Virus record (IMG/VR): IMGVR_UViG_3300007755_000009
Location: 1-31,171 of that record
Source of the DNA: a virus
DNA length: 31,171 nucleotides
Strand: one strand, 5' to 3'
Shown here piece after piece: positions 1 to 13,419 of the stretch. The position numbers and the translations under genes were made by a program. The notes below the pieces were generated by a model, which was not told the DNA's origin, did not search any database, and saw only the letters and a list, made by a program, of their open reading frames with translations. Position 1 is the first letter of the stretch; each line of letters starts with the position of its first letter.

Positions 1-171
1 GGTGCACAAGGTGATCAAGGTGATCAAGGTATACAAGGTGAACAAGGTGATCAAGGTATACAAGGTGATCAAGGTATACAAGGTGAACAAGGTGCTCAAG
101 GTTTAAAAGGTGATCAAGGTGATCAAGGTATACAGGGTATACAAGGTGTAAAAGGAGATACAGGTAACCAA
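1..171 (+). repeat. Tandem 9-bp repeats coding Gly-X-Gln triplets
   Basis: The unit is GGTGATCAA / GGTATACAA / GGTGAACAA repeated with small variations. Longer blocks such as GGTGATCAAGGTATACAAGG recur almost exactly. Near-identity at the DNA level means copy number could change by slippage or recombination. The repeats are in frame and end at GGTAACCAA. Confidence 0.85.
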
Positions 172-240
172 CATCTAAGTAATGTATCTTCTATTGAAAA
201 AGATACAGATGGATACTTAGTTATTACTTTAAAATCATAG
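1..240 (+). CDS. Collagen-like tail fibre protein, C-terminal end (5' truncated)
   Basis: The frame is open from base 1 and stops with TAG at 238-240, so only the last 79 residues are here. About 19 consecutive Gly-X-Y triplets (mostly GDQ, GIQ, GEQ) run to about residue 57. A short non-repetitive tail follows and ends in YLVITLKS. Collagen-like Gly-X-Y stretches form triple helices and are common in phage fibres and other adhesive virion proteins. The X position is often Asp, Glu or Ile and the Y position is nearly always Gln. A structured non-coding region and a terminator follow directly, so this is the last gene of its transcription unit. Being a virion fibre is inferred from the family and the phage context; the N-terminal part that would fix its attachment is outside the window. 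Confidence 0.75.
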
Positions 241-243
241 ATT

Positions 244-421
244 TTGGACTATTGTGACTGCATCATTACTTTACGCATAAAGTGCTTTCTAAGTCCAAGG
301 CTGCCCATAATGGGGCTAAGTGTAAAAGGGTAGGGCAGGTTAGGTCAATTTGTTTTCGGTGGAAAACTCTTTAGACACCCTGCCCGCGCTCTCTTTGGGA
401 CATTAATTCGTCCCTTTTTTG
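244..421 (+). ncRNA. Candidate structured RNA (multi-hairpin 3' UTR or small RNA)
   Basis: This intergenic stretch contains a series of perfect inverted repeats. A 7-bp stem TTGGACT (244-250) / AGTCCAA (292-298) encloses a 6-bp hairpin ACTTTA-CGCA-TAAAGT (268-283). A short GCCC/GGGC hairpin follows at 303-316. A 7-bp stem GGGCAGG (333-339) / CCTGCCC (379-385) encloses GTTTTC-GGTG-GAAAAC (352-367). A terminator hairpin closes the region at 397-420. The nested arrangement is more than a terminator needs. It could be a stable 3' end of the fibre mRNA, a processed small RNA, or a regulatory structure. I recognise no known RNA family and see no separate promoter. Confidence 0.4.
397..421 (+). terminator. 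Intrinsic terminator
   Basis: GGGAC (397-401) and GTCCC (410-414) form a 5-bp GC-rich stem with an 8-base loop, followed directly by TTTTTT (415-420). It closes the fibre-gene transcript. A copy of the TGACATATCT motif lies 13 bases further on. Confidence 0.75.
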
Positions 422-433
422 TATATGCCAGTA

Positions 434-443
434 TGACATATCT
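434..443 (+). promoter_or_regulatory. TGACATATCT motif (candidate phage promoter element)
   Basis: Exact copy of the recurring TGACATA(A/T)CT motif, 13 bases after an intrinsic terminator and 82 bases before the start at 526. A partial second copy, TGACATACT, follows at 453-461. This is where a promoter for the next transcription unit is needed. A CATACT hexamer 17 bases after ATGACA could act as a -10 box here, but most other copies lack one. Confidence 0.5.
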
Positions 444-525
444 TAGTCGAAATGACATACTATAGTTAATTCCATAGAGAAAATAACCTAGAGTTTAATT
501 ACGATGATATATCAAGGAAAAGAAA

Positions 526-1233
526 ATGGACCCATTTATACTTTTATTAAAACAATTAGCCACATTAGTTTCTAATAATTCAGATACATTAACAACATTA
601 GTTGTAGCTTTTTTAGGATATTTAGCTTATAAAAAAACTAATTTACAAACACTAGAACATAGAACTTCTTTAGCTGATAGAGTAGAGAAGATTGAAAAAG
701 AAATACAAACACCTACCTTAAGCTATACTGACTTAAAGAAAGAAGTAGCTGAAAGATCTTCTGTCAGAGAAGTACTAAAAAAATTATTGAGCAATGCCGG
801 GGCTAACAGAGCCTATCTCTTTAAATTCCATAACGGTACCAAATATTACACTAACAAACATCAAACTCGTTGTACTTGTGAGGTCGAAGTAGTGAGCGGA
901 GGCACAACTCCTATTATGGCACTATATCAAAATGTACCAGTACACGGGCATCCTTTTATATTAGATAAGTTATTAGAGGGTGAAGCCGCTGTTACAAAAG
1001 TAAAGGATATACCTCAAGAATTTACTATTGAAAAAAATATGTATCAAAAAAGTGATACCAAGGCTATTGCAACTATTCCTATCCCTGATCCGGATAGCGG
1101 TTTATTAATTGGTTTTATTGGAGTATCTTGGACTACTAAACGAACTAAAAAGGGAGAGACTTTATTTCCATTTATGGAAAATGCAGCTACTGATATTCAG
1201 TCTATTATAAATTTACCTGAAGATGATAGCTAG
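526..1233 (+). CDS. Membrane-anchored GAF-like domain protein
   Basis: 235 residues. A hydrophobic segment at about residues 20-36 is a likely membrane anchor and is followed by Lys. A short charged helical or coiled-coil stretch follows (about 40-80). A globular domain (about 80-230) resembles GAF-type sensory domains: the helix VREVLKKLL, then RAYLFKFHNG with an FHNG motif at 101-104, and late beta strands around IATIPIPD and GLLIGFIGVSW. GAF domains bind small molecules or mediate dimer contacts; no ligand can be assigned. The AAGGAAAAG site upstream supports this ATG. The stop overlaps the next start by 11 bases, so the two products are probably co-translated and may work together at the membrane. 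The GAF call is a fold-level impression, not a close match. Confidence 0.6.
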   Translation: MDPFILLLKQLATLVSNNSDTLTTLVVAFLGYLAYKKTNLQTLEHRTSLADRVEKIEKEIQTPTLSYTDLKKEVAERSSVREVLKKLLSNAGANRAYLFKFHNGTKYYTNKHQTRCTCEVEVVSGGTTPIMALYQNVPVHGHPFILDKLLEGEAAVTKVKDIPQEFTIEKNMYQKSDTKAIATIPIPDPDSGLLIGFIGVSWTTKRTKKGETLFPFMENAATDIQSIINLPEDDS

Positions 1234-2053
1234 TAATTCAAAAGCTTTCCTGCTTTTATTAGCAGGAACAGCTCTCTTTGTGGCCGGTAATGCTGCCTTT
1301 TTTAGCATCACTGGCCTTTCTCATTTTTTTGCAGGAGCATTTTGGTCTGTTATAATTATGGCTTCTTCTTTAGAACTAGGAAAATTAGTAGCAGCTAGTT
1401 TTTTATATCGTTTTTGGGATAAAATAAATACAGTATTAAAAGCTTATTTATTAATTGGAATTATAACTTTAGTAGGAATAACTTCTACAGGTATATTTGG
1501 TTTTTTATCTAAAGCTTATCAAGGATCTACATTAGAGCTAGAGCAAAGTAATTTAGAAACTAAATTTTTAGAAGAAAGGCTTGCACAGTTAAAGGAAGAT
1601 AAGGTATATTTACAACAAGAATTAGAGGAACAAATAAGTACTTTGCCTCCTAATTATATTACGGCAAAGCGTAAATTAAGAGAACAATACTCTCCTCAAG
1701 TGCAAGCTTTATCTGAAGATATTATAAAGGTTACTTCTAATTTGGGAGAGTTAAAACAAAAATTACTTACTACCGGAGTTGATGTGGGACCTCTTCTATA
1801 TGTGGCTAACGCCTTTGATACAACTATGGATAATGTAGCAAAATGGTTAATTTTTATTTTAATCTTTGTATTCGATCCACTTGCTTTAGCTCTTGTAATT
1901 GCGGTTAATATAGTATTAGAAGAACACCATCATACTAAGGTTTTATCTATAAATTTAGAGGATACTCCACCTAAAAAGAAGCAAAGAGGAAAAGAAATTG
2001 AATTTCAAAAAGAGGCAAAAAGTAAACCTAAATCAGGATTCCAGCCTTACTAA
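1223..2053 (+). CDS. Four-helix membrane protein with long coiled coil
   Basis: 276 residues. Hydrophobic segments lie at about 8-28, 36-58 and 72-96, and a fourth at about 206-232. Between helices three and four is a long Glu/Gln/Leu-rich coiled coil (about 103-185). The C-terminal tail is basic (PPKKKQRGK). This topology puts the coiled coil on one side of the membrane, so it may act as a sensor, spacer or oligomerisation rod. The ATG lies inside the end of the upstream GAF-like gene (11-base overlap). I do not recognise a family with a known role. A holin, superinfection-exclusion or host-takeover membrane protein would all fit, and none can be preferred from sequence. Confidence 0.65.
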   Translation: MIASNSKAFLLLLAGTALFVAGNAAFFSITGLSHFFAGAFWSVIIMASSLELGKLVAASFLYRFWDKINTVLKAYLLIGIITLVGITSTGIFGFLSKAYQGSTLELEQSNLETKFLEERLAQLKEDKVYLQQELEEQISTLPPNYITAKRKLREQYSPQVQALSEDIIKVTSNLGELKQKLLTTGVDVGPLLYVANAFDTTMDNVAKWLIFILIFVFDPLALALVIAVNIVLEEHHHTKVLSINLEDTPPKKKQRGKEIEFQKEAKSKPKSGFQPY

Positions 2054-2056
2054 CTA

Positions 2057-2066
2057 TGACATATCT
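2057..2066 (+). promoter_or_regulatory. TGACATATCT motif
   Basis: Exact motif copy in the 33-base gap before the tail-fibre-like gene at 2087, just ahead of its AAAGAGG ribosome site. There is no room for a separate -10 box before the ribosome site, so if this is a promoter it must act as a single-element type. Confidence 0.45.
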
Positions 2067-2086
2067 ATCTAAAGAGGTAAATTAAA

Positions 2087-3010
2087 ATGCCAGCATATGG
2101 ACCATTAAATATAACAACTAGAGAAGAAAAAGGGTTTCCTTTATCAATTGCTGAACTTGATAGTAATTTCAAGCAGATAGCTAATTATGTAGCCAATGAG
2201 TTCACAGGAGAATTCATTGATGACAGATTAGTAGACCTTTTAGTAGATTCTAATACATCAGGAATTGATATAGATTACGATGATGATCAAGATCAATTAA
2301 CTTTATCTGTTGATTTATCAGAGTTACTAGTTGAACAGTTAGTTCCATTATTCGAGGGCGGTACTGGTATTTCTGCAGAAGAAGATGCAGTAAATAATCA
2401 AGTTCTTTTAAATATAGATTTTACAGAATTTGATACAGATGATATCACTGAAGGAACCTCTAATATATTCTATACGGACGATAGAGTTGCCTCAAAATTA
2501 CTAACTGATTATACTACAAGTGATGAGAAAGCTACTGCTGGAGTGGATGATGATAAGCTATTAATTTATGACAATATATCTGGTACTCTGCAAAAGATTT
2601 CTCCAAAATATGTTGGTATACAGGAAATAGCGGGCATGCAGGATCTCGGAGATATAGATTATACAGCATCAACCTTACTAGTAGCAGATGGAGATTCTTT
2701 TGAACAAATGGCTCTTGGAGGAGATGCTTCTTTAACCCTACTAGGGGATACTGCCTCTCTACAGTTAAATGCAATACGAAGCGCCGAAAATAATGAACCA
2801 GTTTTAGCCTGGGATGAAAATGATGGCGCCCAATGGAAAATGAAATCAAAAGTGGATACTAATGATACTTATCAGGATTTACCTATTGTGGGTTTCTATA
2901 CAATTAGTGGCGCTGGAGCTTTACCAAGTGACGTAACTGATCTGGGCAGCGGAGTGGGATCACTTTGTCATAATACAGATGATGGCGTACTGTGGGTAAG
3001 ATTAACTTAA
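2087..3010 (+). CDS. Tail-fibre-like virion protein
   Basis: 307 residues, acidic and rich in Asp, Thr and Ser. The N-terminal LSIAELDSNFKQIANYV resembles the start of many phage fibre proteins (an E-x-D-x-N-F pattern). Near residues 125-140 is ITEGTSNIFYTDDRV, a close variant of the ItEGs-tNlYyTdaRV repeat common in fibre and baseplate proteins. The C-terminus is Gly-rich and ends in DDGVLWVRLT, as in receptor-binding or fibre ends. AAAGAGG precedes the ATG at good spacing. It follows a TGACATATCT motif, so it may start a transcript. The fibre assignment is by motif; the receptor is unknown. Confidence 0.65.
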   Translation: MPAYGPLNITTREEKGFPLSIAELDSNFKQIANYVANEFTGEFIDDRLVDLLVDSNTSGIDIDYDDDQDQLTLSVDLSELLVEQLVPLFEGGTGISAEEDAVNNQVLLNIDFTEFDTDDITEGTSNIFYTDDRVASKLLTDYTTSDEKATAGVDDDKLLIYDNISGTLQKISPKYVGIQEIAGMQDLGDIDYTASTLLVADGDSFEQMALGGDASLTLLGDTASLQLNAIRSAENNEPVLAWDENDGAQWKMKSKVDTNDTYQDLPIVGFYTISGAGALPSDVTDLGSGVGSLCHNTDDGVLWVRLT

Positions 3011-3026
3011 TATAGGAACTAAGTAT

Positions 3027-3221
3027 ATGGCAATATTACCAAAATATACAACCGATTCTAAACGTAAAAAACCAGAAATATCCTTTAATAAAGAAGATTT
3101 TGAATTTCTTCTTAAAACCTTACAATCGGCAAATATTCGATTAAAAGATTTGGAACAAGCTGTTATTACTATCGGTAAACTACAGGAAACGTACAAATCA
3201 ATAATCGAAGCACAGAAATAG
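3027..3221 (+). CDS. Small helical hypothetical protein
   Basis: 64 residues, Lys/Glu-rich, with a predicted helical C-terminal two thirds (FEFLLKTLQSANIRLKDLEQ). No recognised domain. It starts 16 bases after the fibre-like gene with only a weak purine stretch (AGGAACTAAG) upstream. The -1 frame is open across its last 14 codons and continues without a stop into the next gene, so it may be the N-terminal part of a larger product made by frameshifting (see findings). Confidence 0.5.
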   Translation: MAILPKYTTDSKRKKPEISFNKEDFEFLLKTLQSANIRLKDLEQAVITIGKLQETYKSIIEAQK

Positions 3222-3316
3222 CAGATTATCTGCAAACCTTCCCTCTAAATGATGTCAGAGAAAGTCTTCGAGGAGATTTTCTACATTATTCAGCATATCT
3301 GGGGTTTAGTGAATTA

Positions 3317-4048
3317 ATGGAAACCAATCCCACTCCTACTCCTGGAGCAGAGGATTATAAAGCAAATACGATCCTAAAAACCATGATGCAGGACCATTTT
3401 CGTTTACAATATGAACGTGAAGAATTAATGGGTTTTGCTGCATATCAAATGGGTATTCCCGCAGAAGCAGTTTATATAGAATATGAAGGATTACCGAATA
3501 AATCTAATTTATTCTTAGTTAATCCCGATATTAAACCTGTAAAAGGAAAAGAAAAAAGTTTTATGTTAAAACTTATTAAATGTCCTAATTCTCCGGTAGC
3601 TTATAATATAGGAATCTTTAACAGAGAATTTAAAGTCACATCTTCTAATGCACCTGAGATCAGTATGATTCCTTTAGATAATGTGCAGGAATTTGACCCG
3701 ACTTTTGACTTTTCTGCAAATTTACAAAGAATTATATGGGCCAGTCGTGGTATTATTCCAGGTAATCCAGATTCAGTTCCTATGAACTACATAAATATAA
3801 GTAATGTAATAGAATCAAATAAAAAAATAAGTAGACAATTTAAATGCTATATTCAAGCAACAGAGATAGAAAAAATAGCAGAAACATTTGAAAGAGTAGG
3901 AGATATTACTCTTCACAAGAATGGAGCTCAAAATCTTATAGTAAATCTTTTAGATTTACTTAGTGTTAATTTTGAAAAGGATTGGATTAAATTACCTCCA
4001 GTAAATTTATTTAGAGAAAATGCAACAAAAGGCTTGCATGTTAACTAG
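3317..4048 (+). CDS. Hypothetical protein, possible virion/baseplate component; start uncertain
   Basis: 243 residues from the ATG at 3317. No domain recognised. It has mixed alpha/beta composition, with a PVAYNIGIFNREF stretch and a C-terminal helical part. The ATG is poorly supported: the nearest G-rich site (GGGG, 3301-3304) is 12 bases away. The same frame is open upstream back to 3179 and reads as ordinary protein (STEIADYLQTFPLNDV, then RESLRGDFLHYSAYLGFSEL), but it contains no ATG, GTG or TTG. The true product may therefore be longer by about 30-45 residues, through a rare start codon or a -1 frameshift from the preceding 64-residue gene. Confidence 0.55.
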   Translation: METNPTPTPGAEDYKANTILKTMMQDHFRLQYEREELMGFAAYQMGIPAEAVYIEYEGLPNKSNLFLVNPDIKPVKGKEKSFMLKLIKCPNSPVAYNIGIFNREFKVTSSNAPEISMIPLDNVQEFDPTFDFSANLQRIIWASRGIIPGNPDSVPMNYINISNVIESNKKISRQFKCYIQATEIEKIAETFERVGDITLHKNGAQNLIVNLLDLLSVNFEKDWIKLPPVNLFRENATKGLHVN

Positions 4049-4089
4049 AAATAGTTGTAATTTTTCGTACCTAAAATAAGGAGAAACTA

Positions 4090-4356
4090 ATGAGTTATAA
4101 AGTAAAACCTAAAAAAGATCGGCTTATAATTGTGGCCGAAAAACAAAAAGACGTTACAGATGGCGGTATTATTATACCTGAAAAATCTAAAGGACGTCCA
4201 CACAAAGCAGTAGTTACTGAGATAGGTCCTGATGTTAAGGATATAGTCGTTGGAGAAAAAATAGTATTTTCTAAATACGCTGGTACAGTTGTTAATTTAG
4301 ATGATGAAACATTTCTCATAATAAGAGAAGAGGATGTAATAGCCTCCTACGAATAA
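4090..4356 (+). CDS. groES-like: GroES-like co-chaperonin (Cpn10)
   Basis: 88 residues, close to the usual 95-100 of GroES. The N-terminal KVKPKKDRLIIVAEK matches the Cpn10 signature (P-x-x-DR-hydrophobic). VTDGGIIIPEKSKGRP (about 22-37) is the mobile loop with the GGI-hydrophobic element that docks on GroEL. KAVVTEIGP, VGEKIVFSKYAGTVV and ETFLIIREEDVIASYE are the conserved strands and the C-terminal Asp-x-x-Ala-type ending. It would cap host GroEL and widen or retune its chamber for phage proteins. Precedents are T4 gp31 and related phage co-chaperonins, needed for capsid protein folding. AAGGAG lies upstream at good spacing. No phage GroEL is seen here, so a host GroEL partner is assumed. 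Confidence 0.9.
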   Translation: MSYKVKPKKDRLIIVAEKQKDVTDGGIIIPEKSKGRPHKAVVTEIGPDVKDIVVGEKIVFSKYAGTVVNLDDETFLIIREEDVIASYE

Positions 4357-4358
4357 GC

Positions 4359-4685
4359 ATGCCAGTACGTAAATGGACAGAAGATAAAATAGTAGATGCT
4401 ATTCAGGAACTAGGACAAAGTAAATGCTATTCTACATACGTAAAGCAAACTAATGGCGCTTTATGGAAAGCGGCTCAACGTCACTTTGGTTCATGGGGAG
4501 CTGCTGTGGAAGCAGCTGGGTTTGATTATGAAACTGTAATTCGTTGGGGGCCTAGAGAAGCTCCCAACAAAGGAACTGGTGGAACTTGTACTTATCCGGG
4601 TTGTATTAAGAAACATCATGCAAATGGCCTATGTCAAGGACACGATAATATGTATAGGCATAAATTAAAACATAGTAAGACATAA
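4359..4685 (+). CDS. Small DNA-binding protein: homing-endonuclease-associated repeat plus zinc motif
   Basis: 108 residues. Residues 5-57 (KWTEDKIVDAIQEL, then ALWKAAQRHFGSWGAAVEAAGF) fit the homing endonuclease-associated (HNH) repeat, a helical DNA-binding element with the W...FGSW...A...AG pattern. The C-terminal part has Cys77, Cys82, Cys92 and His95 in a C-x4-C-x9-C-x2-H arrangement with a GLC-x-x-H core, likely a zinc site. No nuclease catalytic HNH or GIY-YIG block is visible, so it is either a stripped homing endonuclease or a phage regulator. It starts 3 bases after the GroES stop and is likely co-transcribed with it. Confidence 0.65.
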   Translation: MPVRKWTEDKIVDAIQELGQSKCYSTYVKQTNGALWKAAQRHFGSWGAAVEAAGFDYETVIRWGPREAPNKGTGGTCTYPGCIKKHHANGLCQGHDNMYRHKLKHSKT

Positions 4686-4687
4686 CT
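4678..4687 (+). promoter_or_regulatory. AGACATAACT, one-mismatch copy of the motif
   Basis: Nine of ten bases match TGACATAACT. It overlaps the stop of the zinc protein and lies 5 bases before the ATG at 4693. That is too close for a leader carrying a ribosome site, so it may be chance or a different kind of site. Confidence 0.25.
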
Positions 4688-4692
4688 AGAAT

Positions 4693-5832
4693 ATGAGTTA
4701 CATAAGAAGAGATAAACGTAAATATATTAGAAAGCCCATCTCTGGTGATAGAGTTATAGAACCTGCTGCTAAAAAAGCAGAACAGGAAGATATAACTGAC
4801 ATTACCTTAGTAGAAAGTCTTTATGATGATGAAGTCCGTTTAGCTCTTCTGGAGACCGCTGAGAAAGATCTAAAAGAATTGGAAGATTTGGTAGATAAAG
4901 CAATGAATGATCTAACTATCTTAATGGATCCGGGTCAAACAGCAATGGTTCAAGCAATATCTGTATTAAAAGCTGAGCCTTCCCTTTTGTTGGATGGTAA
5001 AACTATTGAAATGGCTTTAGATTTAGCTATGGATGGCTTTACACATGGGGTGGGTTTTGATCCTGTTGCAGCTGCTTTAGGATTACACGGAGCTACTGAT
5101 GGTGTTCCGAATGCCCCTATTCCTACTGTATTTCAAGATTGCCAAGCTATGCAGAATTTAGAAGGCATCAGCAGTCCTAGTGATCCTAATTATGAGACTT
5201 CTAAAATAGATGATATTTCTAGGGAAGTACATCAAACTAATTCTTTAGATATTCTTGGAAAACTTTACAGAATTTTTAAATATTTTCCAGGTTTGGACAT
5301 TGTTAAGTTTCTTAAAAAAATTAGAAATAGATGGGTTAGGCGACCAGTTAATAAAGCAATTCGTTGGGTAAATTGTAATATGGTAAACCCTGCGTGGTTT
5401 CTTTTATCTGGAGAAGCTAAAACCTGTTCTGAGGAAGATGAGGCAGAAGATCCTTTAGATGTAGATGAGGATACTTGGATGGATGCGGATGATATGGAAG
5501 CAACAGGCATGGACTGCCTGGAAGCAGCAGCCACTGTAATGACATATTGCGAAACCAGTCTCAGAGGTAATCAAGAAGTTAGAACCATGTTTAATGCCCG
5601 GGAACAACGAGCAGAACATGAGGCTATCAAATTTGGTACAATATGTAATAGTATTAAAAATAAGGATCATTTCGAAAATAGAATTGATAATTTATATCAA
5701 TCTACAAAGAATATACCTAGGTATAAAAAACGATTTTATGACCATCGAGATGCTTTTATGGGGCAGAATGAGAAACAAAGATTTAAACTTAAATCAAAAG
5801 CTGCCTATGAGGCACAGCAACAAGGAAATTAA
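4693..5832 (+). CDS. Hypothetical protein, probable virion component
   Basis: 379 residues, unrecognised. The N-terminus is basic (IRRDKRKYIRKP), followed by an acidic helical part (about 35-80). A Gly-containing middle (MDGFTHGVGFDPVAAALGLHGATDG) and a basic amphipathic helix region near 195-225 (FLKKIRNRWVRRPVNKAI) come next. A strongly acidic segment (about 245-270) precedes a charged C-terminal helical part. Five or six Cys residues are scattered in the second half. The mix of acidic and basic helices and the location in a late block suggest a structural or inner-virion protein, but this is only inference. No strong ribosome site precedes the ATG. Confidence 0.5.
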   Translation: MSYIRRDKRKYIRKPISGDRVIEPAAKKAEQEDITDITLVESLYDDEVRLALLETAEKDLKELEDLVDKAMNDLTILMDPGQTAMVQAISVLKAEPSLLLDGKTIEMALDLAMDGFTHGVGFDPVAAALGLHGATDGVPNAPIPTVFQDCQAMQNLEGISSPSDPNYETSKIDDISREVHQTNSLDILGKLYRIFKYFPGLDIVKFLKKIRNRWVRRPVNKAIRWVNCNMVNPAWFLLSGEAKTCSEEDEAEDPLDVDEDTWMDADDMEATGMDCLEAAATVMTYCETSLRGNQEVRTMFNAREQRAEHEAIKFGTICNSIKNKDHFENRIDNLYQSTKNIPRYKKRFYDHRDAFMGQNEKQRFKLKSKAAYEAQQQGN

Positions 5833-5834
5833 TT

Positions 5835-6089
5835 ATGTCATATACCGATATTTATCGACGTGAAATTTATTTGGGCGATTACCGGGTAGAATGGGCAGAT
5901 CAAAAAATTATTGTGGTTTGTTCCTGCTTAAAGGCCCCAGAATTAGACATTTTCTCAGATAGTTATACTTTATGTCCGCATTGTGGAAGAAGATACTCTA
6001 TTTCAGAAATAGTAAAAGTAGAATTACCCGATGATGTAATACAAGAAGCACGCGATCAAGGAGACGTGCTTGACATAATGGAGGACTAA
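5835..6089 (+). CDS. Small zinc-ribbon protein
   Basis: 84 residues. Cys29, Cys31, Cys47 and Cys50 (VVCSCLKAP, then TLCPHCGRRY) form a C-x-C...C-x2-C zinc-ribbon-like site. The C-terminus is acidic (QGDVLDIMED). It starts 2 bases after the previous stop. Small zinc ribbons of this kind bind nucleic acid or serve as protein-assembly modules; the role here is unknown. Confidence 0.6.
   Translation: MSYTDIYRREIYLGDYRVEWADQKIIVVCSCLKAPELDIFSDSYTLCPHCGRRYSISEIVKVELPDDVIQEARDQGDVLDIMED
6071..6080 (+). promoter_or_regulatory. TGACATAATG, partial copy of the motif
   Basis: Eight of ten bases match TGACATAACT (the TGACATAA core). It lies in the end of the zinc-ribbon gene, 10 bases before the ATG at 6091 and overlapping its GGAGG site. 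Low weight alone. Confidence 0.2.
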
Positions 6090-6090
6090 T

Positions 6091-6489
6091 ATGGGATTTT
6101 TATCTAAAAGAATTAGGGAACTAATAAAGAAAAAGAAACGACAGAAGCAGGCAGTTATAAAGAAAACAACTTTTAAAGATGTTTCTTTTATGTCAGCAAA
6201 TTCAACTGCAATAGAACTTACTGAATTTGTAAATACAAGAATTAATACTTTAACAGCGCAAGCTGGTTCAGATGAGGTAACCGTTGAAGATTTTAGTATT
6301 CAATATATTGATCGAACTGTAAAGGAAGATTATAAGAGTACAGTAGTTTATGAATCAATTAGAGTAGATAATAATGATTGGATGACTGAAAAAACAATAG
6401 AAGAAAGCGAATTAAACTCTAATAAAAACAGAGATGCATTAACATTTTATATGATAATTATAGAATATATAACAGTAAAGAGGTCTTAG
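6091..6489 (+). CDS. Hypothetical protein with basic N-terminus
   Basis: 132 residues, unrecognised. The first 30 residues are very basic (RIRELIKKKKRQKQAVIKK). The rest is an alpha/beta domain with Thr/Glu-rich strands and a hydrophobic C-terminal strand (ALTFYMIIIEYITVKRS). GGAGG precedes the ATG at good spacing. It overlaps the GTG start of the ClpP-like gene by one base (TAGTG), so their translation is probably coupled. Confidence 0.5.
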   Translation: MGFLSKRIRELIKKKKRQKQAVIKKTTFKDVSFMSANSTAIELTEFVNTRINTLTAQAGSDEVTVEDFSIQYIDRTVKEDYKSTVVYESIRVDNNDWMTEKTIEESELNSNKNRDALTFYMIIIEYITVKRS

Positions 6490-7112
6490 TGAATAGAATA
6501 ATTTTTATAACAGAAAATATTGTTTCTACTTCTGGGGAAGATACAAGAGAAAACTCCCTTATTGGAAGAGTAGCGGCACAAATAATAGAATTAAATAGCA
6601 TGTCAACAGAAGATCCTATCTATGTTGTTATAGACACAGATGGGGGAAACTTAAAAACAGCCTTATCTTTGTTTGATATATTAAGATCCTCCATTGCTCC
6701 CGTACATACTTTGGGGTTGTCCGAGGTATCTTCGGCAGGTGTCCTTATTTTCCTTGCAGGGGATAAGCGTATAGCTTTTCCTCGCACACAATTTATGACA
6801 CATCCCAGTACTTTAAATGTAACTGGATCTTCGTTAGATTTTAAAACAACTAGTGAAACTCTAAGCAGTCAAGGCGAAATTGTAAAGGATTTATTCAAAG
6901 ATCGAGCTAATATAAGCAAAAAGAAATTTGAAAAACTTCATTCGAAGGTAAACTTTATGTGGGCTGATAGAGCTAAAAAAGAAGGTATTGTTACACAAAT
7001 TGAACATAAGCTGCCCATAGAACTGATACAACATAAAACAGATAAAAACTTTGCAGAAGCAGCAATGCATTTACAAGGTTTAGCTGAAATTATAGGAATG
7101 ATGCAACAATGA
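6489..7112 (+). CDS. ClpP-like serine protease (S14 fold)
   Basis: 207 residues, the usual ClpP length. DPIYVVIDTDGGNLKTALSL (about 42-61) matches the ClpP S/D-GG oxyanion region. GLSEVSSAGVLIFLAG holds the nucleophile Ser82. FPRTQFMTHPST holds His105. WADRAKKEGIVTQI (158-171) corresponds to the E-A-x-x-x-G-hydrophobic-hydrophobic ending. The third catalytic residue, Asp in family members just before this segment, aligns with Val154/Asn155, so the triad looks incomplete or rearranged. Start is GTG at 6489 with AAAGAGG upstream. It could process virion proteins, redirect host Clp complexes, or be inactive. A separate prohead protease lies at 17891, so this is probably not the capsid maturation enzyme. 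Confidence 0.8.
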   Translation: MNRIIFITENIVSTSGEDTRENSLIGRVAAQIIELNSMSTEDPIYVVIDTDGGNLKTALSLFDILRSSIAPVHTLGLSEVSSAGVLIFLAGDKRIAFPRTQFMTHPSTLNVTGSSLDFKTTSETLSSQGEIVKDLFKDRANISKKKFEKLHSKVNFMWADRAKKEGIVTQIEHKLPIELIQHKTDKNFAEAAMHLQGLAEIIGMMQQ

Positions 7113-7474
7113 TACCCGTTGAAAGTTACGAAGAATTACCTCAGCCCGTAAGAGCTATGGCTAAAAACTTCTATGAAGCAGATGTCAATGAGCCCGAAGT
7201 GTACGAGGTTGATATGGAAGAATACGATAACTTAGCAACTACCGATGATGTAGTTACTCAATTGCTTTTTTGGCGTAATGAGCATAAGTTCTATGCAGTA
7301 GTAGCAGGAGATGCTAAACGAAAAATACAATCTAAACATATTGTACATGATCCTTACTATAAACCATGTGCTATTCTTGCCTTTTATGAAATAGATGAAA
7401 CTATGATTCCTTTATGGAATCAAAAGTATTCTAATAAAACTATTACAAAAGGTATACTGGAAATGGATGTCTAA
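7109..7474 (+). CDS. Hypothetical protein
   Basis: 121 residues, acidic, unrecognised. An N-terminal YEELPQPVRAMAKNFYEADV stretch leads to an alpha/beta domain with aromatic residues (QLLFWRNEHKFYAVVAG). It overlaps the ClpP-like gene by ATGA, and its last codons overlap the next gene by 8 bases, so it belongs to the same translationally coupled run. Confidence 0.5.
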   Translation: MIPVESYEELPQPVRAMAKNFYEADVNEPEVYEVDMEEYDNLATTDDVVTQLLFWRNEHKFYAVVAGDAKRKIQSKHIVHDPYYKPCAILAFYEIDETMIPLWNQKYSNKTITKGILEMDV

Positions 7475-7688
7475 TCATTCTCTAGTAAGATATATACCTA
7501 TGCGGAAAGAATTATGTTCTTTAGCTAAAAAAGGTAAATTAGATTTCTTAAAAGAATACAAAGAGATTAAAATGTTTCTTAAGTTATATAAGGATTCTGG
7601 ACCTAGGTGTAATTATCTACTAAGTGTGTGTAAAGTGATAGATATGGATCCAGAAATAAAGGCACAAATAGAGGCTTTGAATGAGTAA
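7467..7688 (+). CDS. Small basic helical protein
   Basis: 73 residues, Lys/Leu-rich and predicted helical (LAKKGKLDFLKEYKEIKMFLKLY), with two Cys near the C-terminus (RCNYLLSVCKVIDM). No domain recognised. The ATG at 7467 overlaps the end of the previous gene and the stop overlaps the next start by 8 bases. Confidence 0.5.
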   Translation: MSNHSLVRYIPMRKELCSLAKKGKLDFLKEYKEIKMFLKLYKDSGPRCNYLLSVCKVIDMDPEIKAQIEALNE

Positions 7689-8472
7689 AGATGACATAAC
7701 TAATAAGGACATAGTTCCCGATAAGGTAGAAAAAGCTTTGGCTAAGATGGGTAAAGATGACCTAGTGGCCTTAGTTGATCTACCTAAAACAACAGAGATT
7801 GAAAAGATACTTGCTGCCTATCCTGAAGAGGTTAGGGAGGATATAAAGCTTAGTAGAAAGCAAGTGACAAGCTTGTTAAAGCATTCTAAGATCTCTACTT
7901 TCGGAGTAAATAATACTTTACCCATGCTGTGTCATGGCGAGGAGTGTCCAGTATATAAGACTTGTTTCTTTTATAAAGCTGGAATTGCTCCCAAGGGGGA
8001 ACGCTGTCCCGATGAAATTATGTATCTAGATCAAATGATACCTCAGTTAATTACTGATATGGGTGTTGACTTAGAAAATTATTTAGAAGTAAGTATGGTA
8101 CAAGAATATGCAGCAGCCTTACTCGATAAACGGAGAGCACAGAATATGATAGCTTTATATGGAGATGTAAAAGAAGTAGCAACTAGCGTTATTCAAGCCA
8201 CAGGTACGGCTTTGTATACAGAGCAGGCTACTCCTTATGTAGACATAAAAGCTAGATCTTCTAAACTTTTAACACAACTAAGAAAAGAATTATTAGCAAC
8301 AAGAGAACAACGTGCTAAGTATAAACTTACGGATGAAACAGATCCTTCAACAAGGGCTGCAGAAATGCGTGAGAAATTTGAAAAATTAGTTGAAATAGAG
8401 CAAGAAGAAAAAAAGATCACCGAACAGAGTCTTGACGAAGCCTTTAAAGAGGATGTGAAAAATGATAGCTAA
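7681..8472 (+). CDS. Cys-rich DNA-packaging-like protein, candidate small terminase
   Basis: 263 residues. The N-terminal 70 residues are helical and charged. Cys84, Cys89, Cys95 and Cys109 (CHGEECPVYKTC, then PKGERCPDE) form a likely metal-binding knuckle. The following helical part includes ATGTALYTEQATPYVDIKA, then LRKELLATREQRAKYKL. This resembles the C-terminal region of P27-type small terminases, which carries a 'G...y...P' stretch before a terminal Leu/Arg helix. The C-terminus is a charged coiled coil. It lies upstream of the large terminase in a phage that otherwise shows no small subunit. The small-terminase idea rests on this loose resemblance and on position. A metal-binding virion protein is the alternative. 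Confidence 0.4.
   Translation: MSKDDITNKDIVPDKVEKALAKMGKDDLVALVDLPKTTEIEKILAAYPEEVREDIKLSRKQVTSLLKHSKISTFGVNNTLPMLCHGEECPVYKTCFFYKAGIAPKGERCPDEIMYLDQMIPQLITDMGVDLENYLEVSMVQEYAAALLDKRRAQNMIALYGDVKEVATSVIQATGTALYTEQATPYVDIKARSSKLLTQLRKELLATREQRAKYKLTDETDPSTRAAEMREKFEKLVEIEQEEKKITEQSLDEAFKEDVKNDS
7692..7701 (+). promoter_or_regulatory. TGACATAACT motif inside a gene start
   Basis: Exact copy 11 bases inside the coding start of the gene at 7681, where GAC ATA ACT encodes Asp-Ile-Thr. A further GGACATAG follows. It could drive the genes from 8462 onward or be a coincidence of coding. Confidence 0.35.
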
Positions 8473-9085
8473 ATCTACATTAGCCGTAATGGCTGGGTTA
8501 GGAGCCGCCGGAATGGCCGGATCATGGTTAAATAGCCCCGGAAAGAGTGTAGCAAAGACTCCGGGAAGCCAAAGTATGACATCTTCAAAAGCATTTAGAG
8601 AAGCGGGTTTTTGGAGAAGACAGGCAACTGTCGCTACCTTAGGTATTACAGGACAGGGTGTTGGAGGAATTGGCGCTCTTACTGGCTATTGGGGAGAAAG
8701 ACTTCCTGATATTGCTAAGTCTACTATGACTAAACCAGTCGGAGTAGGTGCAGTTACAGGTGCCGGAATTGGGCTAGCAGGTTCGTTACTAATAGGTGCT
8801 TTTTCTAAGACACCTATAGGAGGAGCAGCTCTCGCAGCAACTGGTATTGGCGCTGTAGCAGGAGCATATACAGCTCGAAAAGTTCAATTACAAGTAGTTA
8901 ATGCCGCTAATACAGCAAGACGAGCAGCATACCAGAAACAAGTTCCAGGTAACCGTGCTAGAGGAGGAGGAGCAGGTTATCGTATGTGGTCAAATCAGCG
9001 CACTAAGGGTAAACCAGGGCATTTAGGTATGAGTGGAAGTTTGCCTTTTGCAATGCACAAAGCCAGACATAGGAGTACAGTATAA
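8462..9085 (+). CDS. Gly/Ala-rich hydrophobic protein, possible ejection or inner virion protein
   Basis: 207 residues. Several Gly/Ala-rich hydrophobic segments (about 8-22, 57-75, 96-138) contain repeated small-x-x-x-small patterns typical of helix packing in membranes. A basic stretch follows (ARKVQLQVVNAANTARRAAY) and the tail is Gly/Arg-rich (RARGGGAGYRMW, then FAMHKARHRSTV). It overlaps the upstream gene by 11 bases and the next gene by one base. Paired Gly-rich membrane-active proteins next to packaging genes are often pilot or ejection proteins that enter the host envelope. That role is inferred, not shown. Confidence 0.5.
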   Translation: MIAKSTLAVMAGLGAAGMAGSWLNSPGKSVAKTPGSQSMTSSKAFREAGFWRRQATVATLGITGQGVGGIGALTGYWGERLPDIAKSTMTKPVGVGAVTGAGIGLAGSLLIGAFSKTPIGGAALAATGIGAVAGAYTARKVQLQVVNAANTARRAAYQKQVPGNRARGGGAGYRMWSNQRTKGKPGHLGMSGSLPFAMHKARHRSTV

Positions 9086-10128
9086 TGCCTTTACAGACAG
9101 AAGCTAGTGTTATGAGCAAAGCTCTTACAGGCACAGGGGGAGGCCTTGCAGTGGGTGGCGCTTATATGGGAATTGAAGGCGCTACAGGTGTAAATCCTCT
9201 AAGCCTGATGCCTACCCCGTGGACAGGTGCTATGTATGGTGGGTTTATCTTTAATCCACTTACAGCAGCTAAAATGGCCAAGCAGGGTATTTTTGGTGCT
9301 GGAGGTGACTTTGTTGGAAAAGTTAATAAAATTCCTAAAGGTTTAGCAAAAGGATATTACACTACGCCTAACTTATTCGGGGACGGCGGAAGAATGTATA
9401 AAGCAGGTACCGCAGCAACTACTCGTTTTGGGGGAATGCTTGGTTATAAAACTTTGCTCCTAGGTATGGGAGAAGGCGCTGGTATGGGAGCTAGAGCTTC
9501 TATTGGCAACGTTATGCTTTCCGGTATACAAGCTTTAGGACAGGGTATTTCTGCTAAAAGCACTGACTGGGCAAAATATGAATTTGTACAGACTATGTCT
9601 AATGCTAGAAGTTTGGGATTAGCAGGAATGGCAAACTTGTCCGAAAAGAGTGTAGGCTCCACAGTTGGTAAAGATTTAATAGCAAGCAAGCTATACAAAA
9701 TGGGAGGAGTAGACGTGGCCGGTGCTAAAGTTATAGAGTCTGGGGTAAAAGGAAAAACTACAGTTAATATTACAAAAGATATGATGAAAAAGGGATTACA
9801 AGTAGGTGCTACAAGCGGAGGTGCTCGTTTATTTACAGCAGCTTTAGGATTATACTCTACATATGCCTGGTTTGAATTATTTGGAGGTATAGCAAAGGCA
9901 GCAGGAAGTATTGCTGTAGAAGGAGTAGGAGAAGCAGCTAGATCTTTTTTTCAATATGTAAAAGAAATTCAACGTCCAGAGTTTGGAAGAGGACGTTTAC
10001 ATATGGCTATGGCATCTGCTGGAGCTGCAACAGAAAGGCAACGAGCAGTCCGAGCTACGTATGGTAATAAAATTAATCCAACAAATAGATTAATGGGTAC
10101 AGAAGCAATGTACCATCATTCAAGATAA
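9085..10128 (+). CDS. Gly/Ala-rich hydrophobic protein, second of a pair
   Basis: 347 residues, same character as the preceding gene: many Gly-Ala-Met hydrophobic segments (about 14-40, 122-150, 240-275) separated by basic loops. The C-terminal part is basic and helical (GRGRLHMAMASAGAATERQR, ending EAMYHHSR). It starts by TAATG overlap with the upstream gene, so the two are probably made in fixed ratio. It may be a paralogue or partner of that protein. A membrane-penetrating ejection protein is the best guess; no enzyme domain is visible. Confidence 0.5.
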   Translation: MPLQTEASVMSKALTGTGGGLAVGGAYMGIEGATGVNPLSLMPTPWTGAMYGGFIFNPLTAAKMAKQGIFGAGGDFVGKVNKIPKGLAKGYYTTPNLFGDGGRMYKAGTAATTRFGGMLGYKTLLLGMGEGAGMGARASIGNVMLSGIQALGQGISAKSTDWAKYEFVQTMSNARSLGLAGMANLSEKSVGSTVGKDLIASKLYKMGGVDVAGAKVIESGVKGKTTVNITKDMMKKGLQVGATSGGARLFTAALGLYSTYAWFELFGGIAKAAGSIAVEGVGEAARSFFQYVKEIQRPEFGRGRLHMAMASAGAATERQRAVRATYGNKINPTNRLMGTEAMYHHSR

Positions 10129-10139
10129 TAGGAATAGTT

Positions 10140-10307
10140 ATGGTAAAAGTTACACCTAAACATGAAAACGAATCTGTAGAGGGAATGCTTCGCAGATTTA
10201 AGAAAAAAGTCGATCAATCAGGAGTTATGCAAGAACTTTGGCACAGAAGATTTTATATAAAACCAAGTCTAAGGCACAAATTCAAAAAAGTAAAACCCTG
10301 GTCTTAG
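10140..10307 (+). CDS. rpsU-like: Ribosomal protein bS21 (phage-encoded)
   Basis: 55 residues. Sequence features of bS21 are clear: the basic N-terminus VKVTPKHENESVEGMLRRFK (ESVEGMLRRFKKKV matches the family's E-x-hydrophobic-x-x-hLRRFK helix), GVMQELWHRRFYIKPS (family G-hydrophobic-x-E-x-x-R-R-x-FYxKPS), and a Lys/Arg-rich end. AGGAATAG sits just upstream at good spacing. bS21 binds the 30S platform next to the 3' end of 16S rRNA and assists initiation. Phage copies are known in some large and marine phages and are thought to replace host bS21 and bias translation. It lies between the hydrophobic pair and an intein-like gene that overlaps its end in the -1 frame. Confidence 0.9.
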   Translation: MVKVTPKHENESVEGMLRRFKKKVDQSGVMQELWHRRFYIKPSLRHKFKKVKPWS

Positions 10308-11077
10308 GCCAAGGTCAACTTTTAATGCTCGCTTCAGGTGAAATAGTTTCCATAGAAGATCTTGGAAACTATTCTCCTTATCCATCCATCATAGCCTGGA
10401 AAGATGAATTTACATTTAATCGTATTGTATCTATTAAAAAAGTTAAAGAAAATATTATGCATTTACGATCATCTCATGGTAGAAATTTATATTGCGGGAA
10501 AGATACAAAATTAACTCGCGGACCTCTTTGCAAAGAAGAGTACTTAACAGCGCAATCACTTAAAGAATATCCAGAAACTTTTAGAGGCTCTCCTAGGGAA
10601 GTTAATGCATGTGCTTTTAGGCATCTGCCCTTTTTTGGAACGTGGTCTCCTTCTAAACTATATTTAGATAGCCTAGGTAGTTCAATAATACGTGTTAATA
10701 ATAGTCGTCCTAACTACTACACAAAACAATGGGTACCCGCGGCTTTAACAAAATTAAGTCAAAGCGCCTTAACCTATATACTAGACAAATTTATTTTACC
10801 CTTACAAACATTAAAACACTTAACCACGGATAGTAAAGATATAATGATACAAACACTTAGTAAACTCTTTATACCTTTTGATGGACAAGTCAAAGGACAT
10901 AAAGCTGTACAAGGATGCGGTACTATTAAATTACCTGAAATATGTAAAGAGCTACCGGTGCTAAAAAAGGAAAGTATGCGTTTTGTAGAAGATACAGAGC
11001 AAACAGCTTTCATGCTTACTTTTGAAAATAATTCATCTCCCATAATTAGCGGATTACTTATATGTCTGAACAAATAG
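10238..11077 (+). CDS. Free-standing degenerate intein-like (Hint/DOD) protein
   Basis: 279 residues if started at TTG 10238; the first ATG is 10325 (residue 30). Residues about 18-108 read as an intein N-terminal Hint region: TLVLGQGQLLML, SGEIVSIEDL, then a strand-rich part with RIVSIKKVKENIMHLRSSHG and LYCGKDTKLT followed by EEYLTAQSL. Residues about 164-215 (QWVPAALTKLSQSALTYILD, then TTDSKDIMIQTLSKLFIPF) resemble the second half of a LAGLIDADG (DOD) endonuclease. The end (QTAFMLTFENNSSPIISGLL, then ICLNK) resembles blocks F and G. Splicing residues are lost: no Cys1, TxxH reads CGKD, the penultimate His is Leu, and there is no C-extein. It overlaps bS21 by 70 bases and the terminase by 16. 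Confidence 0.6.
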   Translation: MAQKILYKTKSKAQIQKSKTLVLGQGQLLMLASGEIVSIEDLGNYSPYPSIIAWKDEFTFNRIVSIKKVKENIMHLRSSHGRNLYCGKDTKLTRGPLCKEEYLTAQSLKEYPETFRGSPREVNACAFRHLPFFGTWSPSKLYLDSLGSSIIRVNNSRPNYYTKQWVPAALTKLSQSALTYILDKFILPLQTLKHLTTDSKDIMIQTLSKLFIPFDGQVKGHKAVQGCGTIKLPEICKELPVLKKESMRFVEDTEQTAFMLTFENNSSPIISGLLICLNK

Positions 11078-13419
11078 AAAAACCTATATTAGACGATGAA
11101 CAATTACTAGAAGCTAAGATTTTGGCAGACCCAGTTTACTTTGCTGAAATATATTTACGATCTCCCTCTAATCCCAATGAACCCCTAGAATTACGCTCCT
11201 ACCAGAAGAAGATATTAAGAGATAGAGCCTCTAAAAGAATTCTTAGAATTGGCCGTCGTGTTGGTAAATCTGTAACTATAGCTGTAGAAGCTATTTGGAA
11301 AGCTTATACTAATAAATATAGGGAGATTCTTATAGTTGCAGGCTATGATTCGCAGGTTCAAACTGTGTTTAATCTTATTAAGAACATGGTTAATGAATCT
11401 CCTGAAGTTTCCAAATCAATTGAGGGAACTAGAATGCGTCCTTACGAAATAAAATTTAAGAATAATTCTATTATTATGGGTTTTGTTGGAAATAATGCTG
11501 TTCGTGGTAAATGTCTTCCCGGCGATACTTTAGTAGTGATGGCGGATGGAATAACATTAAAAGAAATTAAAGATATAAAAGAAGGTGATAAAGTTTTATC
11601 AGTAGACACGGAACTGACTGATAATAACGCTCGAGTTGGTACTGTTTCATCTATACACGATAACGGAATAAAAGATATATATGCTATTGAAAGCAGTAGT
11701 GAGCGCAGATTACATTTAACAGAAAACCATAAAGTTATGGCAATGTATAGAGGATGGATAGAGGCTAAAGATTTAAATACTGAGGAGGACCAGGGTAGTA
11801 AATCAGATTTTATAGCAACAGTACATCCTAATGGAAAAGCTTATTGGACAAGAGTTCAGAAATTTCATAAAATTGGAAAAGCAAAAACATATGATCTTAC
11901 AATTGACAAATATCATAATTTTATAGCCTTTAATCAAATTCCAAATTCTAGCGGTGCCGTAGTTACCCCTTATGGAGCAGATGCATTATCTTCTTTTAAA
12001 ATAGATGGCTTACACTCCGGAGGATTTCTTGTACATAACTCAGCTAGTGACTTATACATTGATGAGGTAGATTCTATTCCTAATGCCTTATTGGTAGAAG
12101 CAGTTCTTCCTATTGAGCAATCTTACACACATACTTCAATTACTGTGTCGGGTACTCCTACAGGTAAACGCGAATACTTTTATAATGTCAGTAAACATAA
12201 AGACGAAATGGGCTTTTCGGAGTGGCATATGCCTTCCAATGTTTCTCCCCAGTGGAGTGAAGAAAAAGCTAAACAAATTAGAATGGTTACTTCAGAGAGT
12301 CAATATCTTCATGAGTATATGGCAGAGTTTGGATCGATGGCTGAAGGTGTCTTTAAAAATCATTTTATTGATCAAAATTTATATGTCTATAGTTATAGTA
12401 GTTTGAAAGTAAATCCTAATAACTATTATATATTAGGGGTTGATTGGAATGAATCTCAGTTTGGAGTACAAGCAGTAATACTTGAATATATGAATGACAC
12501 AGAACACCTGCTACCCTATAATGGAGGAGAATGGAAAGATATCAACGGCGAGCCTAACAATCGAATTGAAAAGTCAGGCCTATTACGTGTATTCTATGCA
12601 GACGCTATTGATCCCGCTTCTTACACCAATATGGGTTCCGTTGACTTTATTTTAAAATTGATGAAAAAGATTCCTTTTAAATTAATGGCTTTTGATAAAG
12701 GACACGGGGAAGCTAATTATGAAATGTTACGTTTATCCTTAGAAAATGGAGTAGGCCCGATGGGGACATCATGTGCTGGTATGAAAAATTTTCTAAATAA
12801 TATGATATCAGTTGACATGGGAGGATCTACTGAAATTATTGATAAAATAACCGGAACTTCTACTAAAGCACCCACAAAAAATGTTATGGTGAAGAATGCC
12901 CAGTTAATGAATGAAAGTGGATTATTAGCTATTCCTGCGTGTGATTTAAAAGGTGGAATAGTTGAAGATGAGGAGCAAAAATTAATAGGACAAATGAGGG
13001 GTTATGTAGTAGAGCGAATTGGTAAGCAGGGAGAAGTGTATGCATCCACAGTTCGTGATGGCTTAGATCATAGATTAGATGCTATGATGCTAGGTATCTA
13101 TGCTTATACAATGGACACCTCAGTATTTCATAAAAGAGACTCTGATTTAGCTGCAGAAAATGTAGAAGGATTTGAAGGAATTTCTGCAGTAAAACCCGGA
13201 TGGAGAAGTGTGGAACAGAAAACTTTTAGACCAGAGGTACAACAACGGGATGACATGACTATATATAACCACGGGTCTATTTCACGCGGCGAACCTGAGG
13301 AATATGAATTAGATGGAAAGGGTAAACCTGTTCCTATAAAACAAAGAACTTTATTTAATCGTTCAGGTTTCAAACATACATCTAGATCAATTGTTAAACC
13401 AAAACGCAGGAGATTTTAA
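11062..13419 (+). CDS. terL: Terminase large subunit with in-frame mini-intein
   Basis: 785 residues before splicing and 609 after, a normal large-terminase length. The ATPase domain has Walker A GRRVGKS (64-70), and Walker B DLYIDEVDSI with Asp334/Glu335 directly after the intein. SITVSGTPTG (about 360) is the coupling motif. The RuvC-like nuclease has Asp461 in YILGVDWNESQFG, a middle acidic stretch near FYADAIDPAS and MAFDKGHGEANYEML, and DGLDHRLDAMMLGIY near the end. The protein drives DNA into the prohead by ATP hydrolysis and cuts the concatemer. The start overlaps the intein-like gene by 16 bases. Splicing of the intein is needed to join Walker A and Walker B regions, so packaging would depend on it. 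Confidence 0.93.
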   Translation: MSEQIEKPILDDEQLLEAKILADPVYFAEIYLRSPSNPNEPLELRSYQKKILRDRASKRILRIGRRVGKSVTIAVEAIWKAYTNKYREILIVAGYDSQVQTVFNLIKNMVNESPEVSKSIEGTRMRPYEIKFKNNSIIMGFVGNNAVRGKCLPGDTLVVMADGITLKEIKDIKEGDKVLSVDTELTDNNARVGTVSSIHDNGIKDIYAIESSSERRLHLTENHKVMAMYRGWIEAKDLNTEEDQGSKSDFIATVHPNGKAYWTRVQKFHKIGKAKTYDLTIDKYHNFIAFNQIPNSSGAVVTPYGADALSSFKIDGLHSGGFLVHNSASDLYIDEVDSIPNALLVEAVLPIEQSYTHTSITVSGTPTGKREYFYNVSKHKDEMGFSEWHMPSNVSPQWSEEKAKQIRMVTSESQYLHEYMAEFGSMAEGVFKNHFIDQNLYVYSYSSLKVNPNNYYILGVDWNESQFGVQAVILEYMNDTEHLLPYNGGEWKDINGEPNNRIEKSGLLRVFYADAIDPASYTNMGSVDFILKLMKKIPFKLMAFDKGHGEANYEMLRLSLENGVGPMGTSCAGMKNFLNNMISVDMGGSTEIIDKITGTSTKAPTKNVMVKNAQLMNESGLLAIPACDLKGGIVEDEEQKLIGQMRGYVVERIGKQGEVYASTVRDGLDHRLDAMMLGIYAYTMDTSVFHKRDSDLAAENVEGFEGISAVKPGWRSVEQKTFRPEVQQRDDMTIYNHGSISRGEPEEYELDGKGKPVPIKQRTLFNRSGFKHTSRSIVKPKRRRF
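11512..12039 (+). mobile_element. Mini-intein in terminase large subunit (residues 151-326)
   Basis: 176 residues. It starts with Cys1 (CLPGDTLVVMADG, block A), has the block B Thr70-x-x-His73 (LTENHKVMA), block F (KTYDLTIDKYHNFIA, 125-139) and block G (GGFLVHN, Asn176), and is followed by Ser+1. All residues for standard class 1 splicing are present. No endonuclease domain is present, so it cannot home alone. Insertion is between the VRGK and SASDLYIDE segments, just before Walker B, a conserved site also used by other terminase inteins. Unusually, about 30 residues (140-170 of the intein) separate blocks F and G, which are normally adjacent. Confidence 0.92.

Follow-up and report, generated by a model that had tools for sequence, protein, structure and literature searches.

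The gene directly upstream of the large terminase subunit gene (terL) in the viral DNA analyzed here (the window, a stretch of 31,171 nucleotides) encodes a free-standing intein-like protein, apparently derived from an intein that phages domesticated and in which both catalytic activities, splicing and endonuclease, have been lost. Selfish splicing elements are usually viewed as parasites, whose persistence depends on homing or on their removal by splicing. This intein-shaped protein seems to have lost both tricks along with its host protein, and yet it has been kept beside a conserved mini-intein. In the open-access literature, no title among the matches listed dealt with a dead intein that exists as a separate gene and is conserved next to the terminase of phages.

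An open frame at 10238–11077 (plus strand, as for all window features with coordinates below) translates into 279 amino acids from a TTG codon, and it is in this form that the gene was described in a first-pass annotation. The frame is indeed there, but its TTG start is doubtful: the annotation missed the ribosomal protein bS21 gene (10140–10307; PF01165, E 1.2e-14), which extends into the beginning of the intein-like gene and covers the first 70 bases of the frame in another reading frame. Initiation at TTG 10238 is possible, but this codon sits within the bS21 gene and the other members of the family begin later. Because 9 of the 11 full-length members begin with an ATG at the end of the bS21 gene, the start in the window is probably ATT 10280, the codon that matches these ATGs, with an AAGG motif 5 nt upstream. 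The gene would then span 10280–11077 and encode 265 residues; residue numbers given here are counted from this ATT. A frameshift fusion with bS21 was also considered and dropped, since nine members possess an ATG of their own. In locus L102, the outgroup of the family, the gene has a probable ATC start seven bases after an AGGAGG (L102:7060), and the phages with these probable ATC and ATT starts each have a bS21 gene of their own.

The fold of the window protein was predicted with AlphaFold2. The alignment supplied comprised family members only, 12 distinct ones including the window protein, and no templates were used; the resulting model has a pLDDT of 86.4 and a pTM of 0.85. When this model was compared with the PDB by Foldseek, endonuclease-bearing inteins came out on top (7qsu, E 4.1e-8; 7qst, E 3.7e-7), with query TM-scores of 0.63–0.65 but rmsd values of 6.5–6.9 Å. 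With VIA, the alignment to 7qst (PhoVMA) reached a Z-score of 17.4 over 232 residues at 3.6 Å and covered model residues 6–264. Hint-only inteins gave Z-scores of about 16 over 132–139 aligned residues, as expected if the predicted fold is of the Hint type, whereas 232–241 residues could be aligned with 7qst, 7qsu, 7qss, and 2cw7. The order proposed in the first-pass annotation, Hint-N, endonuclease-like middle, and Hint-C, is thus the one on which AlphaFold2, Foldseek, and VIA agree at the level of prediction, and the closest solved structures are inteins that bear an endonuclease. The predicted Hint-N part comprises model residues 6 to about 100 (10295–10579), as delimited by secondary structure and the VIA alignment. 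It is followed by a reduced LAGLIDADG (DOD) middle at residues 119–200 (10634–10879), in which the model contains a two-helix LAGLIDADG core formed by helices 126–136 (10655–10687) and 161–175 (10760–10804), the motifs being placed by eye. The Hint-C part, delimited from the model and alignments, occupies residues 228–264 (10961–11071) and ends in ICLN rather than VHN. In a structure search of BFVD, 194 matches reached E 0.001; named proteins near the top are, among others, helicases, terminases, polymerases, and DOD-type endonucleases, and we read these as intein hosts. The model obtained for the outgroup L102 was too poor to be used (pLDDT 56.7) and was set aside.

Downstream of the intein-like gene, terL (11062–13419; PF03237, E 1.2e-6; phrog_2, E 8.6e-26) is interrupted by a mini-intein of 176 amino acids (11512–12039; PF14890, E 1.2e-12). 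The first-pass annotation described this element as having functional splicing residues and no endonuclease, and this description extends to all 12 aligned members, in which the mini-intein occupies the same site, retains C1, TxxH, HN, and S+1, and has no endonuclease. It is nearly as conserved as the extein (70–91% versus 80–90% identity in six pairs). Its blocks F and G are separated by a long stretch, shorter in L102, which we take to be an insertion and which is longer than usual for inteins. One locus has a second terminase intein beside the mini-intein, 411 amino acids long, located at the Walker A motif and with LAGLIDADG_3 matches (L019:6768–8000). Other genes of these phages also contain inteins. 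A giant frame was found in L130 (positions 1–13167, in the 148-kb record G005) as well as in L131, L132, and L133; it encodes 4405 amino acids in G004 and G005 and 2451–2856 in relatives, among which is the phage of the window itself, with the frame lying outside the window. By eye, five inteins can be counted in L130, and one site is common to all four loci; the intein at this shared site keeps C1, the block B His, and HN, and its LAGLIDADG motifs look degenerate. A ribonucleotide-reductase-like frame of the same 148-kb record (L134:1287–5477, 1397 amino acids, recognized by eye) carries two inteins.

Sequence profiles failed to reveal what structure prediction suggests. The window protein matched no Pfam or PHROG family at E-values up to 10, the L102 protein had no Pfam family, and the eight members scanned against Pfam gave chance-level matches only (three families, each matched by a single member, at E-values no better than 0.07). 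Nothing convincing came from a PDB profile search either, the two matches being of chance quality (E 1.1 and 2). In hhalign comparisons, the family scored a probability of 1–2% against the inteins of the same phages, while the terminase mini-intein reached probabilities of 41% and 82% with two of these intein profiles. Descent of the gene from the terminase mini-intein or from the giant-protein intein of the same phages was rejected on these low probabilities. Against a profile of endonuclease-bearing inteins, hhalign gave a weak match (E 0.06), whose register is the one expected for the second LAGLIDADG helix. Because sequence profiles link the mini-intein, and not the intein-like protein, to other inteins, the intein ancestry of the gene rests on predicted structure. 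Intein-like proteins of this sort can therefore escape profile searches, and structure prediction is needed to find them.

The VIA alignment with the Mtu RecA intein begins by pairing model residue 8 with intein residue 1, so that intein position 1 corresponds to V8 (10301–10303) in the window protein. This position is occupied by V, K, T, I, or L in the 11 members whose N-terminus is available, and by Cys or Ser in none; a Ser located two residues further on in 8 of the 11 is out of register with the structural alignment. According to the alignments, the block B equivalent (residues 67–76, GRNLYCGKDT, 10478–10507) shows GxxT instead of TxxH, and throughout the family (12/12) the motif is replaced by GxxT, PxxT, SxxT, GxxI, or GxxV. 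The terminal His-Asn is absent from the aligned columns in all 12 members. In the window protein, L263 stands in place of the penultimate His and N264 at the terminal Asn, and a single residue follows, which leaves no C-extein. The protein starts 1 to 7 residues before intein position 1 in 10 of 11 members (about 16 in L102) and, as counted on alignments, ends 0 to 6 residues past the terminal position; the gene has its limits close to those of the intein and amounts to an intein devoid of exteins. The ends of the LAGLIDADG helices were placed by eye with two columns of slack, in an uncertain register. Under this placement, the window protein has no catalytic acid, five of the 12 members keep one, near the end of helix 1 (L011, L014, and L102) or of helix 2 (L013 and L017), and no member has both. 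The losses of Cys1, of the block B Thr and His, of the penultimate His, of the C-extein, and of the LAGLIDADG acids, all of which the first-pass annotation had read from the window protein, are borne out by these comparisons. Two cysteines are invariant across the family, C72, just before the GxxT motif, and C262. The possibility that they form a new active site was rejected: the codon for C262 includes the TG of the ATG with which terL starts, an overlap that accounts for the conservation of this residue and deprives it of evidential value, so that only C72 is left. The loss of the terminal HN was perhaps also dictated in part by this overlapping start codon.

The gene was found in a group of uncultured phages, in the order bS21, intein-like gene, and terL with its mini-intein, and terminase alignments yielded relatives at 78%, 59–65%, and 43% terminase identity. 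One scan covered 22 terminase relatives, 19 of which have a complete copy of the gene; the others are a partial copy cut by the contig end (L011), a locus that begins inside terL (L099), and a doubtful match at 17% (L103). These loci collapse to 12 distinct members, which include that of the window and go down to 16% identity to the window protein, so that the frame is conserved in related phages, a point on which the reading of the first-pass annotation depended. The gene lies directly before terL and overlaps it in 11 of 11 members checked, by 16 nt in eight of them (11062–11077 in the window), 19 nt in two, and 31 nt in one, taking the nearest matching ATG as the terL start. In 14 records searched, all of which are fragments, the intein-like gene, an Intein_splicing match, and a PF01165 bS21 gene occur together in 11, and all are missing from the other three, which represent two lineages. 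Homologs beside intein-less terminase alleles, which the first-pass annotation proposed to look for, were thus sought, and the two intein-less lineages do not have the gene in the contigs examined; their upstream genes look similar by eye. In L021 and L022, the slot before the intein-less terL is filled by a small gene unrelated to the intein-like gene; that of L021 (3080–3406) is RAP-domain-like (PF08373, E 5e-5, just under the cut-off). Phages ME3 and KLEB27-3, whose terminases have inteins at other sites, have no such gene within 5 kb on either side of the match, so the presence of an intein in a terminase does not in itself call for this gene. Three family members were searched against annotated phages by tblastn; their best E-values, 0.05, 6, and 5, were not convincing. 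A family HMM run on frames of 40 amino acids or more in the collected loci (among them distant terminase relatives, from a search in which 80 of 201 loci were kept, and regions of ME3, KLEB27-3, and a Moorella phage) matched the clade described here and nothing else. No host was found, as a search of genome contigs with the terminase profile yielded 45 pattern matches and no relative. Phage bS21 genes are described as often located near packaging or capsid genes and as transcribed late in the phages studied (PMC9723584), which fits the context of the intein-like gene. The window also includes phage-encoded GroES-like (4090–4356; PF00166) and Clp-type protease (6489–7112; PF00574; head maturation protease in PHROG) genes.

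The intein-like gene looks to be under purifying selection. Nei–Gojobori dN/dS ratios for six informative pairs were 0.16, 0.13, 0.26, 0.06, 0.22, and 0.35, values that are rough because synonymous sites are near saturation; a seventh pair, L017 and L096, is nearly identical and yields no ratio. The frames are intact in all 19 complete copies despite large divergence, whereas in a neutral control none of 2000 mutated copies stayed open for any of four pairs. Pairwise distances among the 12 members track those of the terminase extein (Pearson 0.89, Spearman 0.76), also when the outgroup L102 is removed (Pearson 0.91, Spearman 0.60), and none of 5000 label permutations reached the observed Pearson coefficient with or without L102. 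As judged from these distances, the gene has co-diverged with terL and shows no sign of recent mobility. It evolves faster than its neighbor, with 47–73% identity compared with 80–90% for the terminase in the same six pairs. The protein is basic in all 12 members, with 34 K+R versus 24 D+E in the window.

Because homing needs nuclease residues, and splicing needs exteins and splicing residues, selection on this gene must act elsewhere, most simply on non-enzymatic binding. The explanation that we consider probable is that a complete intein, with its Hint domain and LAGLIDADG endonuclease, became a free-standing gene, that both its catalytic functions had disappeared by the time the sampled phages diverged, and that it would since have been inherited along with the terminase as a selected member of the packaging module. 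Its product may be translated just ahead of the terminase through the overlapping start and would work as a binding or scaffold protein, without enzymatic chemistry. We infer here the domestication of the intein by phages, the non-enzymatic binding, and the coupled translation; the partner is our guess, the most likely targets being the terminase, either its precursor or the mini-intein, or DNA at the packaging module. The constant pairing in the clade and the overlap of the genes favor the terminase or mini-intein, although the pairing could reflect common descent alone. DNA is a possible partner because the protein is basic, although the middle of the model has few strands that could make up a DNA-binding saddle. 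The suggestion of the first-pass annotation that a dead intein was retained as a regulator or DNA-binding protein therefore stands in its general part, a new role being favored by 12 members that have no catalytic residues and yet look selected, while for DNA binding in particular the basic charge and the scarcity of saddle strands point in opposite directions.

The same annotation also proposed a divided system, with a trans-acting homing partner beside a mini-intein. In such a system the endonuclease, active even now or surviving as a relic, would cut intein-less terL alleles and bring about the transfer of both its own gene and the mini-intein. The arrangement stands, as a free-standing homing-type gene does lie beside an intervening element without an endonuclease of its own, as in collaborative homing; a similar layout is described for ICP1, in which the terminase gene terL is split by an intron and has a free-standing T5orf172 homing gene as its neighbor (PMC10448857). 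The gene was seen only with the mini-intein in the 14 records, and an unrelated gene fills its slot in L021 and L022. What argues against this proposal is that no member has acids near both helix ends, so that an active nuclease was rejected and the protein could be a relic at most, that the dead copies look selected, and that distances follow the terminase; we regard such a system as quite unlikely. Decay of a selfish element into a functionless pseudogene would account for the lost catalytic residues and for divergence faster than that of the terminase, but it was rejected, as very improbable, in view of the 19 intact complete copies and of dN/dS ratios well below 1.

Two further readings accept a selected protein and assign it a more specific task. 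A dead Hint domain acting in trans might bind the mini-intein or the terminase precursor and delay or help excision, thereby timing activation of the packaging motor. The pairing with the mini-intein, seen in the 11 searched records with the gene as well as in the further loci inspected, the conservation of the mini-intein with its long F–G stretch, and the adjoining, overlapping genes, which suggest coupled production, all agree with this idea. However, the pairing also follows from common ancestry in one phage clade, the terminase inteins of ME3 and KLEB27-3 do without such a gene, and most known inteins splice without a partner, so that we consider it unlikely. The stricter form, a two-protein Hint system in which the dead intein times splicing of the mini-intein in trans and the motor remains inactive until capsids are ready, receives little credence from us; if true, it would be a case of an intein turned regulator of another intein. 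Small-terminase genes usually lie directly upstream of terL and overlap it, which is the position of the intein-like gene, and the protein is basic in all members; it might thus be an intein-derived, non-canonical small terminase or packaging-site recognition protein. This is improbable, given that Pfam detected no helix-turn-helix family in the eight members scanned, that the model has few saddle strands, and that a 263-amino-acid protein encoded at 7681–8472 is an alternative candidate. The latter, a Cys-rich protein with no convincing family match, is a possible small terminase; in L126 and L022, whose terminases have no intein, similar Cys-rich proteins can be recognized by eye upstream of the terminase.

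Domestication as a non-enzymatic component of the packaging module can be set against several known systems. PhoVMA (PDB 7qst), the best VIA match, is a natural intein described as having a degenerated, inactive endonuclease domain and an active splicing domain (PMC8966425); it resides inside a host protein and splices, whereas the phage protein is free-standing and has no splicing residues. The Arth_1007 intein of Arthrobacter FB24 is reported to have neither a real host protein nor splicing residues and to be inactive (PMC3196547). It is a single case, with exteins of 66 amino acids, and is called a pseudogene in that account (PMC3196547), unlike the 12 selected-looking members of the phage family. 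In HK97, an HNH homing-type protein encoded directly upstream of the terminase is described as working with the packaging machinery (PMC10448857). That protein acts by cutting, whereas the phage intein-like protein has no nuclease residues. The transcription factor WhiA has lost its nuclease function and, in contrast to the phage protein, is not known to contain a Hint domain. It combines a homing-endonuclease domain with a helix-turn-helix domain (PMC11701221). At the ICP1 locus, where a homing gene adjoins an intron-interrupted terL and collaborative homing is described (PMC10448857), the partners are a T5orf172 homing gene and an intron instead of a nuclease-dead intein-like protein and a mini-intein. 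Yeast HO and WHO are free-standing, intein-derived proteins without exteins and without motif G, and WHO genes adjoin a host gene (PMC7282813). They share with the phage protein its free-standing, extein-less state, but they are described as having an active endonuclease and, at the C-terminus, a zinc finger (PMC7282813), whereas the phage protein ends at Hint-C and has no acids; no C-terminal zinc finger with CxxC motifs could be seen by eye in the family sequences. The closest parallels are thus yeast HO/WHO and the homing-type genes beside phage terminases, and HO and the HK97 HNH protein may be taken as earlier examples of homing-type proteins that came to serve their hosts. If confirmed, the protein described here would open to experiment the question whether an intein can turn into a regulator of virus assembly, and phages would have a non-catalytic equivalent of yeast HO.
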